A stretch of DNA of 64,000 bases, from assembly GCA_964059195.1 (NCBI GenBank), contig CAXKWD010000008.1, forward strand, positions 47,596,502-47,660,501, read 5' to 3'. This DNA comes from Ectobius pallidus. Taxonomy: Eukaryota > Arthropoda > Insecta > Blattodea > Ectobiidae. This document shows positions 7,438 to 11,800 of this stretch, piece by piece; within the stretch, counting starts at the first letter, position 1; each line of letters begins with the position of its first letter. The notes beneath the pieces are model-generated. The model was not told the origin of the DNA and did not search any database. It saw only the letters and a list, made by a program, of their open reading frames with translations. Position numbers and translations under genes: made by a program.

Positions 7438-8859
7438 TTTGATGTATTTTGCTTAGTCTGTGCACTTATGTTAATTATTGTGCACTCAGATTTATTATCC
7501 ACCGTCAGTGGGCGTTTCCCTTAAGTTTCGACGTAGCCATCTTGATAGTTTCTCTGCTATAAATAGTTTCCGTTTCCATTTTACATATTGTCCCTAGCTT
7601 ATGTGATATTTGTTTTATGAAGCCAAATTGTTCTATAAAATTATTATTCCCGTTCTGGTTATGTAGCTTCTCTATTTATATTCTAAATTTCGTTTAATAT
7701 TTTGTCATATGATATTGCTTGGCTTAATTTATTCTATGTATGCTAAATTTAAATTATGCTCAATTTCATGTATTGATTCTTTAGTTTGATATCTTATTAC
7801 AATTTAATTCAAGTTATATTTGTTCATGCTCAAATACTTTCTGTTAGGTTCGAAGTTACTTCTGCATATTGTAAATTCCTCACTTCAGTTTCATCCTCCT
7901 GTTAGGTTTCAAATAAGTCATTTTCAGACAGTTTATTCTTTCTGCTTCTTCTTTAAGGTTCTAACTAAGATACATATTTTTCTAGTTAAATATATATATA
8001 CCTTCTATGAATATTAATCTATTCAAATATTAACTTTTGTATTCCTTGATCTTATGTTTAGAGAAATTATAGTCAGTTCAGTTATTATCTACGTTCTTTC
8101 TGTTTCAAGTAAAAGTTCGTTACATTTACATTTCATATTGCTTAACCATTTTTCTCTGTCATTGTGAGCTACCGTTCCATTACTCTGGTATTTTTTATAT
8201 TCTAAAGATTTTGGCATTTCTATTAAATAGTTTCATCTTAGTTATTTTCTGCTTTCTCTTTCTTTTGCATTTAATATTATTCCGGGCTGCGCATCTTTCA
8301 TTCAAATTATTATTCAGGCATTTATCTTCTCTTTTTGGATTTATTGTTTTTTGAGCAGTTAGGTTATTTTCTGATTTTGTAATTGTACATTCGTCAGGGA
8401 ATTTGCCTACGTATTATACTTAACAAGGTTTGGATTTTCCATTTTCATAGGTATTAGTTCACTGTTAGGTTAGTAATATGCAAATTACTATTCGTACTTA
8501 AGTACATTTTGGGAACAAGGTTTAGGATTGATTCTTTATTAAGAATACTTATGATGAAGGAACTTGTATTTAGTAATATTTATTCCATATGTTGTAAAGA
8601 ATATTTTATATTCATATTTCTCATTAAATCCTTGTTACTAGATTTTCCGAAACTTTGGTTGGTATGCTGCATTATTTTCCTGCCTCCTAAATTGCCCTGT
8701 TCTGGAGAATTCGATCTCCCTCTGTTGGGCATTTCCTCACGCATTCCCTGAATAGAAATAAGTATAACTAAACTTGTCAGCATTATAAATATTTCAAGCA
8801 ACTAAATCTTTTCTTATCTTACATTAACCAATAACGAGTTAAAGATTCACTACGTTGCA
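7438..8859 (+). repeat. LTR-like copy 2, 5'-truncated
   Basis: Plus-strand copy, nearly identical to the corresponding part of copy 1, from 7438 to a U5 end CGTTGCA at 8853-8859. It lacks the first 620 or so bases of the LTR. The TATA box is at 7558-7565. Its end is followed at once by TGGTAGCA (8860-8867), the start of a primer-binding site for initiator tRNA-Met, which fixes the LTR end. Confidence 0.8.
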
Positions 8860-8932
8860 TGGTAGCATGCAGGGGAAGCGTGCTGGGCCCATAACCCAGA
8901 GGTCCGTAGATCGAAACTACGCTCTGCTACCA
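8860..8932 (+). tRNA. Initiator tRNA-Met sequence with CCA, wedged between two LTR ends (pseudo-tRNA)
   Basis: From 8864 to 8929 this is an initiator tRNA-Met: anticodon stem CTGGG/CCCAG with loop CCCATAA (anticodon CAT at 8890-8892), and T-loop ATCGAAA, which is diagnostic of eukaryotic initiator tRNA. The 3' end GCTCTGCTA is followed by CCA (8930-8932), normally added after transcription, so the sequence came from mature tRNA. About six bases are missing from the 5' acceptor/D region. Fifteen bases on each side (8853-8867, 8925-8939) are perfect inverted repeats comprising the U5 end and primer-binding-site start of each flanking LTR. Not a working tRNA gene; it looks like a reverse-transcription primer. 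Confidence 0.85.
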
Positions 8933-11800
8933 TGCAACGACAAGTGTCTCTCTGGTTAATTATTTAAGTATTTAAGTATTTATAAGCGTTGCTAAACAAG
9001 AAAAAGAAAGACAAGGAACAACCCTATAACCTAACCAAATACTAGAATACAATATCCCAAATGCAAGATACAGAGTTAAATGCAAATCAAAATATAAGTT
9101 AATATTTATATAACCCAATACTTATAGGATTCCTAATCTGATTACAGAAAATATCAAATTTGAAGGGAGCGTGAGGAAATGCCCACAGAGGGAGATCGAA
9201 TTCTTCTGTACCGGGCAGAGTAGAGGGCAGCATTTGCAATACCACATAGAAAACAGGCAGCATTCAAACAGAGTAACAACTTTTAATAAATAGAACAAGT
9301 CTCATAAAGCAGAGTACAGATCAACAATTAACAATAACTGCACATCCTGATAAATATTGTATAGTATTTAAAATAAATACACCCTAACAAATATATGTTC
9401 GTCTTTCAAGATTACTATTCCTATACTGAAATCTCCTTTCCCAAAAATCTATATTTCTTTTTAAGTAAGCTGCACTAAGTACCTATAATGCCTATAATCT
9501 TGGACAAACCACTATAAATGGTAATTTTAGTCTATAATAAGTTGAAGGGTAGTTATCCGAATATGCCCCAAAAAACCCAAGTAAGCCAAGGTAAATATAA
9601 ATAGGGCTGAAGAGAGTTGAATCAACAATAGCAGGGCAAGTTAGATGACCAGAAGAGTCAGAAAATATTAATACTGAAAAGGCATCAAAATATAAGGTCT
9701 AAGCATGAATAAATGTCCAAAACTCGTTTTAGAAAACTAATGGGACATAAATACAAATGCTCAAAAACAATAAGCCTAGAATAAATTTAGAAAAATGTAA
9801 AGTATACGAACGCAATAGGCCTAGAATAAATTCAGAAAAATGTAAAGTAGCAAAATACTAAAGTGGCAAATAGATAGGCCTAGACTAAATTCAGAAAAAT
9901 GAAAAGAATGAAAAATACTGAAATTGCAAATTGGTAGGCTTAGAATAAATTCAGAAAAATTGTAAGGTATGAAAAATACTGAAATTACAAATTGGTAGGC
10001 TTAGAATAAATGCAGAAAAATGTAAGGTATCAAAATTACTAAGGTGGCAAATCAATAGGCCTAGAATAAATTCAGAAAAATGTAAGGTAACAGAAAACCT
10101 AATATACCAACGCAATAGGCCTAGAATAAATTCAGAAAAATTGTAAAGTATGAAAAATACTGAAATGACCAATAGATAGGCCTAGGCTAATTTCAGAAAA
10201 ATGAAAAGAATGAAAAATACTGAAATTCCAAATTGGTAGGCTTAGAATAAATTCAGAAAAATGTAAAGTACTAAAAATACTACTTTGGTAATCGATAGGC
10301 CTACACTAACCTTAGATAAGCTGTAGAAAAGGTCAAACGGAAAATGCAGTATATAATAATCATACCATAAAAAGAGCAAAATAACTGTGTAATAATCCAG
10401 AGAAGAAATTAGAAAACCAGAAATTCTAAATAGATAAAGGGACCGGATGCTCAAGCAATAACTTAAATAATTACTAAACCTCAAGTGTTAAGTATAAGTA
10501 AGCTTGACCAAAGCTACTACGGAATATACTAGAAGATATAGGCCTACCGGGCTCAAATTAGTGAACAGTATTACAAGGCATTACGCCTATGAGACCACAA
10601 ATCGAACTCTAGAATAGAACATTACAGCCCACTATGGAACTAGATTTTAAATAGCCAAAAACTTCAAATTTTAAGTACCAGGGCAGAATAAGATAGACAC
10701 AATAATAGGAATTTTCCCAAATACCCTATTAAGTTATACTCAACGAGTCATAAGTACCAGAAAAGCACAGGCCCCAAATTTTATTTTAAGTAAAGGCAAA
10801 CGAACCTCAAATCCATAAGAGTAAATTTGCTCTTTCCAAATAATTGGGGACTGTATATTATATATCTCAAAATTCCCCTAAAGAAATCAATAACATGATT
10901 ATAACTTTAAACAGCAAGGTATATTCTTGTTAATAATATATTCTCAGTTACGGGCATAATTTGGATAAATCCTAGGAAAGGAGTAGGCCTCACAATATCT
11001 GTCTAGAAACAAGAATTATTTGTAGTGAAAGAAATCTAACATGGCGATCATGCTTGTACAGGAAACGCCCCTTTGATTGGCAAAAGACATTGCTTCAAGT
11101 TCAAACTAACATATCGTTATAATAGTATGCAAGCTACAATTTCAACTTTTCAATGAAAAATGCATTATAGGAAATCATCCTAATAAATTTACAGAACTAG
11201 GGGTTGCCACAGCTAATGTAATATGACCATCACGCCACTAAAGCTTGCGTGAGGGATATATATATATTTTAGTATATAATTCCAATTTACAGGATCTTTT
11301 TGAACGCAGATTTATCTGCCATAACACACCATCAAAAATGTAAAACAGAATATGTGTACCCTGACATTAACTTCAAGCGTAGATTAACAACTCCATAGAT
11401 TATCTCGACATTGTAATGGTAATTAACCAATTAAGAAATGAATTTAATACTGGAACTCTACTCTTGCATAATCGTCGAATCCATTACTTATGACTGGCAA
11501 TTGATAGTACCAGCTGTATTATCTCTCTCTTATTTGAAACTAAACAGTGCTGAGGGCACAAAACTGATATTAAAGCTACGCCATAGTAAAATATATCGTT
11601 ACTCACGACCAGGAACGAGAGAAAATCTCCAGGCGGCTCCCCACACAACCACACTCCTCCGGCGGATATAAGCAGGGAGACACGAGGATCAAGTTACTCC
11701 AATTCCCCACGAGAGCGCGACACCGTACTAAAGACGTAACCGCAAAGAGCTTAGAGTGCAGAGAGAGGTAATTTAAATTTCAAGAATCAGCATAGCAAAG
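8933..11800 (-). repeat. LTR-like copy 5 (divergent, about 2.9 kb)
   Basis: Minus-strand LTR relative of copies 1-3. Its U5 end is CGTTGCA at 8939-8933 on the minus strand, followed directly by TGGTAGCAGAGCG, a full primer-binding site for initiator tRNA-Met. Shared blocks with copy 1 include the conserved GTGAGGAAATGCCC box (about 9170-9190), the GGGGCGTTTCC box (about 11060) and the block near 11600-11720 that matches the first 300 bases of copies 1 and 3. The outer end near 11800 is approximate. It contains the 60-bp tandem repeats at 9760-10320. No coding sequence is seen. Confidence 0.65.
9760..10320. repeat. About nine tandem 55-65-bp repeats
   Basis: Repeating unit built round TAGGCCTAGAATAAATTCAG followed by AAAAATGTAAAGTA, seen near 9773, 9828, 9883, 9943, 10003, 10062, 10121, 10181 and 10240. 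Units differ by scattered substitutions. It lies inside LTR copy 5 and is absent from copies 1-3. Confidence 0.85.

Follow-up and report, generated by a model that had tools for sequence, protein, structure and literature searches.

An initiator tRNA-Met copied into DNA bridges two LTR ends within a Ty3/gypsy insertion of Ectobius pallidus

In reverse transcription, the plus-strand strong-stop step and primer tRNA removal are usually studied in particles or cells. As far as the passages of the cited papers covered here tell, retained primers are on record from retroviruses: a Moloney murine leukemia virus (MMLV) circle carries tRNA-Gly between its long terminal repeats (LTRs) (Colicelli and Goff, as told in PMC12220202), and a human immunodeficiency virus (HIV) provirus has a reverse-transcribed tRNA-Gly at its 3' end (PMC12220202). 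For Ty3, first-round plus-strand strong-stop DNA with its copied tRNA is described as a dead-end product that accumulates in particles and ends after 12 nucleotides (nt) of tRNA have been copied (PMC5371799). Plus-strand strong-stop synthesis of HIV-1 copies the 3' end of the tRNA and mostly halts at 1-methyladenosine 58 (m1A58), with longer copies, to position 37 or to the 5' end, made when the A58 stop is missing (PMC13191261). Here we describe a 64,000-bp stretch of the 2.12-Gb genome of Ectobius pallidus (G000:C8:47596502-47660501, the window hereafter), in which a DNA copy of initiator tRNA-Met, CCA included, joins two LTR ends tail to tail inside a single Ty3/gypsy insertion, called the carrier element below.

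A CCA-bearing tRNA copy between two LTR ends

From 8853 to 8939 the plus strand of the window reads CGTTGCA (8853-8859), TGGTAGCA (8860-8867), a single additional T (8868), the tRNA-Met copy with CCA, and TGCAACG, which starts at 8933 and is the end of a minus-strand LTR. The plus-strand end of one LTR (LTR2) and the minus-strand end of another (LTR5) are bridged tail to tail by the tRNA copy. The tRNA match is exact over 59 nt (nt 18-76, at 8874-8932) and, with one mismatch at nt 16, spans nt 12-76 at 8869-8932 (64 of 75 nt); missing are nt 1-11, or nt 5-11 when AGCA in TGGTAGCA is counted as nt 1-4. The CCA occupies 8930-8932, immediately adjoining the U5 end of the LTR at 8933. The CGTTGCA motif alone occurs at chance frequency in the window (4 found, 3.19 expected), so the evidence for the junction rests on the exact tRNA match, which bears out the claim of a first-pass annotation that a CCA-bearing LTR-tRNA-LTR junction lies at 8830-8960. 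One full-length match to the 131-nt junction was found in the genome, 40 of the 160 candidates having been scored. A gapped junction pattern occurs at 5 places, with the tRNA present at the window's place only; since the reversed control gave 32 per strand, this pattern is uninformative by itself.

What kind of sequence is this tRNA copy? A tRNA gene would be full length and without CCA, whereas nt 1-11 are absent here and CCA is present. A tRNA-derived short interspersed element (SINE) would have its own target duplication, whereas here LTR ends directly flank the tRNA, and it is the complete LTR element that the duplication brackets. In elements of the Helenus type the tRNA-like sequence lies within the LTR, whereas the window's tRNA sits between LTR ends. 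Both marks of a retained primer are found: the CCA is not encoded in the genes, and the 3' end of the tRNA abuts a U5 end. The 13 tandem initiator tRNA-Met genes read at C1:150.47 Mb lack CCA and are each directly followed by taa, just as the first-pass annotation had expected of the genomic genes. Our analyses confirm that the window junction is a reverse-transcribed initiator tRNA-Met between two LTR ends.

The tRNA gene array was considered as a source of the junction and ruled out, given the 13 genes read, which have no CCA, and the absence of any ARAGORN tRNA call within the window. The array itself (L062, G000:C1:150472000-150481999) has 14 tRNA calls in 10 kb, 13 of them Met, with many genes spaced 141 bp apart and several carrying sequence changes; matches extend to about 150.507 Mb.

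The 16,619-bp insertion that carries the joint

The junction is contained in a single Ty3/gypsy insertion of 16,619 bp on the minus strand, where the order is LTR5, tRNA copy, inverted LTR2, a segment called X, LTR1, leader, gag and pol. The outer ends are exact, with LTRs of the form TG...CA, and a 4-bp target duplication, CAAT, stands on both sides. The features, in window coordinates, are as follows.

8933..11845, minus strand: LTR5, the 5' LTR of the carrier, starting TGTAATGG at 11845 and ending CGTTGCA at 8933
8869..8932, plus strand: DNA copy of initiator tRNA-Met, nt 12-76 with CCA, exact for nt 18-76 at 8874-8932
8860..8867, plus strand: TGGTAGCA, short primer-binding site (PBS) behind LTR2, its AGCA possibly tRNA nt 1-4
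7438..8859, plus strand: LTR2, inverted, of a second LTR family, with U5 complete and about 620 bp of U3 absent
6570..7437, minus strand: X, probable 3' internal segment (partial matches, purine tract), with a purine-rich tract directly before LTR1
4549..6569, minus strand: LTR1, starting TGTGACGC at 6569, without its last 24 bp and PBS
2852..4432, minus strand: gag with a CCHC zinc knuckle (Pfam)
101..2836, minus strand: pol with reverse transcriptase (RT), RNase H, and integrase zinc and core domains (Pfam matches in Ty3/gypsy order)
11846..11849, no strand: CAAT, right copy of the target duplication; the left copy, G000:C8:47591724-47591727, is outside the window

Left of the window, the 3' LTR matches LTR5 at 99.4% identity (3 mismatches and 14 gap columns over 2927). 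By its paired LTRs, target duplication and pol order, the carrier body is a Ty3/gypsy LTR retrotransposon; the protease match in pol is below the Pfam cut-off, and the reading frame stops 11 residues past the integrase core match. The 5' LTR has no normal PBS and leader; instead it is followed by the 59-nt exact tRNA complement and then by the inverted LTR2. Because one insertion with a CAAT duplication encloses everything, the tRNA joint predates integration.

The first-pass annotation had taken LTR2 and LTR5 for free LTRs, a view that had to be given up: LTR5 is the 5' LTR of the 16.6-kb element, and LTR2 is without part of its U3. That the two are independent solo LTRs was ruled out because LTR5 is one of a pair enclosing gag and pol. 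By eye, the stretches read show no duplication shared by the left edge of LTR2 and the right edge of LTR5; the true left boundary of the insertion is about 12 kb beyond that of LTR2.

LTR1 and LTR2 form an inverted pair, 99.36% identical over 1403 bp, and the start position of LTR1 matches that of a solo LTR at 60165-63504. Segment X gives three partial matches (74-91%) to the stretch just before the carrier 3' LTR, and a purine-rich tract stands upstream of both LTR1 and that 3' LTR. From these likenesses, we take X-LTR1 to be the 3' end belonging to a second, related family. At the joint of LTR1 and leader (4548/4549), 24 bp of U5, the PBS and a few next bases are absent, and long gag and pol frames are seen. 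The solo LTR at 60165-63504 (plus strand, LTR1 family) is flanked by a 4-bp duplication, TTAG; compared with LTR1 it contains about 0.9 kb of inserted sequence.

Right of the element, at about 12000-14779 (plus strand), an RT-like stretch and a GIY-YIG-like open reading frame (ORF) recall, by eye, a Penelope-like element, into which the LTR5 element may have inserted; the ORF at 14054-14779 has no Pfam match. Elsewhere in the window are a segmented inverted pair of about 1.6 kb (18542-20153 and 49386-50977, 90-95% alike, 29-32 kb apart), an 81-bp perfect inverted repeat with a 15-base loop (51425-51601), and, at 35900-36700, low-complexity sequence that repeats about every 8 bases (TTTTGGAT-like).

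Related joints elsewhere in the genome

Recurrence was assessed with a 22-nt tRNA-CCA pattern, TCGAAACTACGCTCTGCTACCA, which extends past A58, allowing at most 1 mismatch. It has 56 genome matches, 22 of them exact and one with its mismatch inside the CCA, and the reversed control has 0; an exact search with the first 16 nt of the PBS gives 203 matches (control, 2). We read 53 of the 56 loci with their flanks, the presence of an LTR not being confirmed at every one of them. The other 3, on C7 beside L049 and L050 with a spacing of about 5.2 kb, look like members of one tandem array. The search for more junction copies proposed by the first-pass annotation thus yielded no second copy of the window junction but, among the 53 loci, eight other inverted joints.

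Inverted joints number 9 of the 53 (L013, L016, L020, the window junction as L025, L027, L030, L032, L043 and L058); in L020 the two arms agree at only 79%, and in L043 arm sequence was seen over 46 bp. Tandem U5 duplications, identified partly by eye, are equally numerous (L017, L018, L021, L022, L023, L026, L046, L047 and L048, 9 of 53) and have the tRNA copy between two U5 ends, with a TGG-starting PBS behind the second U5 except in L023; in L018, L022 and L026, TGGTAGCA and then an unrelated leader stand behind the second U5 end. Judged by open frames and Pfam, the tRNA copy runs in sense into gag, RNase H or integrase at L015, L033 and L045, and at L010 into a stretch with an RT of long interspersed element (LINE)-like appearance; L029 (gag-like) and L053 (copia RNase H-like) were assigned by eye only and have no Pfam match. 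Four related pairs occur among the 53 loci (L037/L038, L046/L047, L049/L050 and L060/L061, 91-100% alike), each on one contig and about 5 to 44 kb apart, and look like local duplications.

At 17 of the 53 loci copying of the tRNA ends with nt 15 or 16, single tail ends being uncertain by a few nt owing to bases in common with the acceptor. Because the sequence that follows is varied, this pile-up looks like an enzyme stop. Two loci are unusual. In L031 the tRNA copy reaches nt 2 and is followed by a 37-bp LTR-end repeat and then by another, partial tRNA copy, which may reflect two rounds within one element. In L035 a Ty1/copia-type element (Pfam gag) lies downstream of a tRNA-Met copy interrupted by TACTACCATAACA, and the primer-copy accident may therefore extend beyond gypsy elements. 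As a control with another tRNA, a tRNA-Gly 3' end with CCA had 0 matches at up to 1 mismatch, a host tRNA-Gly gene with that 3' end not having been demonstrated.

Three of the inverted loci are stand-alone LTR-tRNA-LTR units with target duplications (slashes mark the outer ends).

L058: 2734 bp, ATAG duplication, ATAG/TGTTGCGG...CCGCAACA/ATAG
L016: 1498 bp, ATAT duplication, ATAT/TGTACC...GGTACA/ATAT
L030: 2717 bp, CCAT duplication, CCAT/TGTGCT...AGCACA/CCAT

Their outer ends are exact (TG...CA), with a U3 start at each. Other copies corroborate the LTR start of L058 (L055 and L043) and of L030 (L048); L016 is without a comparison copy. The inverted arms are 100% identical over 719 bp in L016, 99.3% over 1337 bp in L058 and 99.8% over 950 bp in L030, where about 750 bp of inverted leader lie ahead of the second arm. 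The chance of a 4-base duplication match is about 0.005 at this composition. In the stretches read, no target duplication was found for L013, L020, L027, L032 or L043; the left LTR of L013 is truncated, and the LTR start could not be defined in L027 and L032. The tail and its acceptor have 7 nt in common in L030, 7 nt in L058 and 4 nt in L016; under the null for the L030 leader, at least 7 nt are expected in 0.06% and at least 4 nt in 1.0%.

Origin of the joint and its counterparts

How were the two LTR ends linked? The window element is probably the integrated product of faulty reverse transcription in which a tRNA tail primed on another LTR. Because the partners in the window belong to two families, RNAs of two related families would have been present in one particle. 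Plus-strand strong-stop DNA of LTR5 would have extended its copy of the attached tRNA beyond A58, as far as the D arm or further, and its tail would have annealed at the PBS of the other family's plus strand instead of its own PBS copy. The tail resembles that PBS because the 5' end of the tRNA and the PBS have AGCAGAG in common; the D-arm sequence GCAGTGG also resembles an LTR end followed by TGG, so the tail could pair at the LTR/PBS border. Extension would then have copied LTR2 backwards for 1.4 kb, switched to X, the polypurine tract and LTR1, and continued into the leader with the PBS skipped, after which integrase would have inserted the whole chimera. A simpler course may apply to L016, L058 and L030, in which the tail would have met its own kind of LTR, giving a unit with a U3 start at both outer ends; two strong-stop strands priming each other would form a duplex with two U3 ends, fit to be an integrase substrate. 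The first-pass annotation had proposed an aberrant reverse-transcription product in which tRNA read-through joined two LTR subfamilies, and the CCA, the extension past A58 and the enclosing target duplication support it.

Several observations weigh against this scheme. The order of the switches in the window (tail to LTR2, LTR2 to X, LTR1 to leader) is deduced from the order of the elements alone, the window joint has the extra T and the nt 16 mismatch so that a clean annealing site is not visible, and only 4 of the 9 inverted cases have a target duplication. L013, L016 and L058 are explained equally well if the tail was joined directly to the minus strand at its first base, which lowers our confidence in the full mechanism; only the 7 common nt of L030, the clearest case, speak plainly for annealing. 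A rather unlikely alternative is that the joint likewise arose before integration but that host end joining, not tail priming, linked two DNA ends. The tails of L013, L016 and L058 (to nt 15/16) can be read as meeting the minus-strand first base exactly, and 1-2 filler bases stand at the L032 and window joints, as end joining would have it; the common sequence in L030, rare under the null, speaks against it, as do the outer ends of the three units, which are U3 starts as expected of copied strong-stop DNA.

Other explanations place the event later or deny it. Nested LTR insertions are generally common, and the LTR1-X-LTR2 block might have come, by nesting or rearrangement, into an older LTR5 element that was already integrated, but this is quite improbable: where the block begins, a CCA-bearing tRNA copy is fused to the end of LTR5, an arrangement that a later insertion would not create, and no duplication was seen flanking the block. 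Since the normal U5 end of LTR1 and the U3 end of LTR2 are missing, the block is not an ordinary integrase-made insertion. The near identity of LTR1 and LTR2 (99.4%) and the identical arms of L016 could be expected of an assembly or long-read hairpin artefact, to which we give next to no credence, as arm sequences differ in LTR1/LTR2, L058, L030, L027, L032 and L013, four target duplications match, the tRNA loop carries CCA and several LTR families are involved. Equally far-fetched is a tRNA-bridged type of element replicating as one unit. The first-pass annotation had considered such a moving unit, and the part that stands is insertion, in that three units and the window chimera went in whole with 4-bp duplications; later multiplication is not shown. 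The window junction was found once, hence there is no sign of its unit multiplying, the related locus pairs have the look of local duplications, and none of the units was found a second time at a dispersed site with a separate duplication.

Beyond tail priming in the window, we are evenly divided on a broader interpretation, namely that strong-stop dimers formed via copied tRNA (U3-R-U5-tRNA-U5'-R'-U3') are an integrase-competent insertion class of their own, which arises repeatedly in several LTR families of this genome and leaves a heritable record of RT stops on the native primer. Together with the tandem U5-tRNA-U5-PBS loci, they would indicate Ty3-like plus-strand transfer in the host and be examples of the tRNA/strong-stop chimeras formerly suggested as forerunners of SINEs. 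Ohshima and Okada reportedly proposed strong-stop DNA plus tRNA as the ancestor of tRNA-derived SINEs; the covalent tRNA-U5 chimeras in this genome are alike, whereas SINEs are mobilised by LINEs and the units here were inserted as LTR elements. About 50 candidate junctions in one genome log how far RT went on a real primer and what follows (inverted LTR, second U5, leader, gag or pol), which would let retroviral and Ty3 models of plus-strand transfer be tested by genome reading in many species. They are also a source of long LTR inverted repeats that might pass for assembly errors.

The PBS of Ty3 is short, about 8 nt, and a short PBS (TGGTAGCA) is also seen here. Primer retention itself is already known from retroviruses, whereas integrated tail-to-tail units were not found described: judged by titles and abstract openings among the matches listed, no description of integrated LTR-tRNA-LTR inversions was recognised in the open-licence literature. 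In Helenus and Ajax, too, an LTR retroelement contains tRNA sequence, but the tRNA-derived part lies within the LTR (PMC10886601, passages covered), whereas here the primer is outside the LTR and has CCA. Copying past m1A58 in HIV-1 is described in vitro or in methyltransferase-mutant cells, and integrated fossils do not figure in the passages covered (PMC13191261). The MMLV circle and the HIV provirus resemble the window in keeping a mature CCA-bearing tRNA as DNA beside an LTR end with a few 5' bases absent; they differ in that a non-cognate tRNA lies in a circle or beside one provirus (PMC12220202), whereas here the PBS-complementary initiator tRNA lies between tail-to-tail LTRs in integrated units with target duplications. 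Ty3 and Ty1 (Lauermann and Boeke model, PMC5371799) are alike in having an initiator tRNA-Met primer and a partial tRNA copy in strong-stop DNA; in contrast to the 12 nt of Ty3 (PMC5371799), the loci read here commonly have tRNA copies of about 60 nt, some of them integrated in inverted form.

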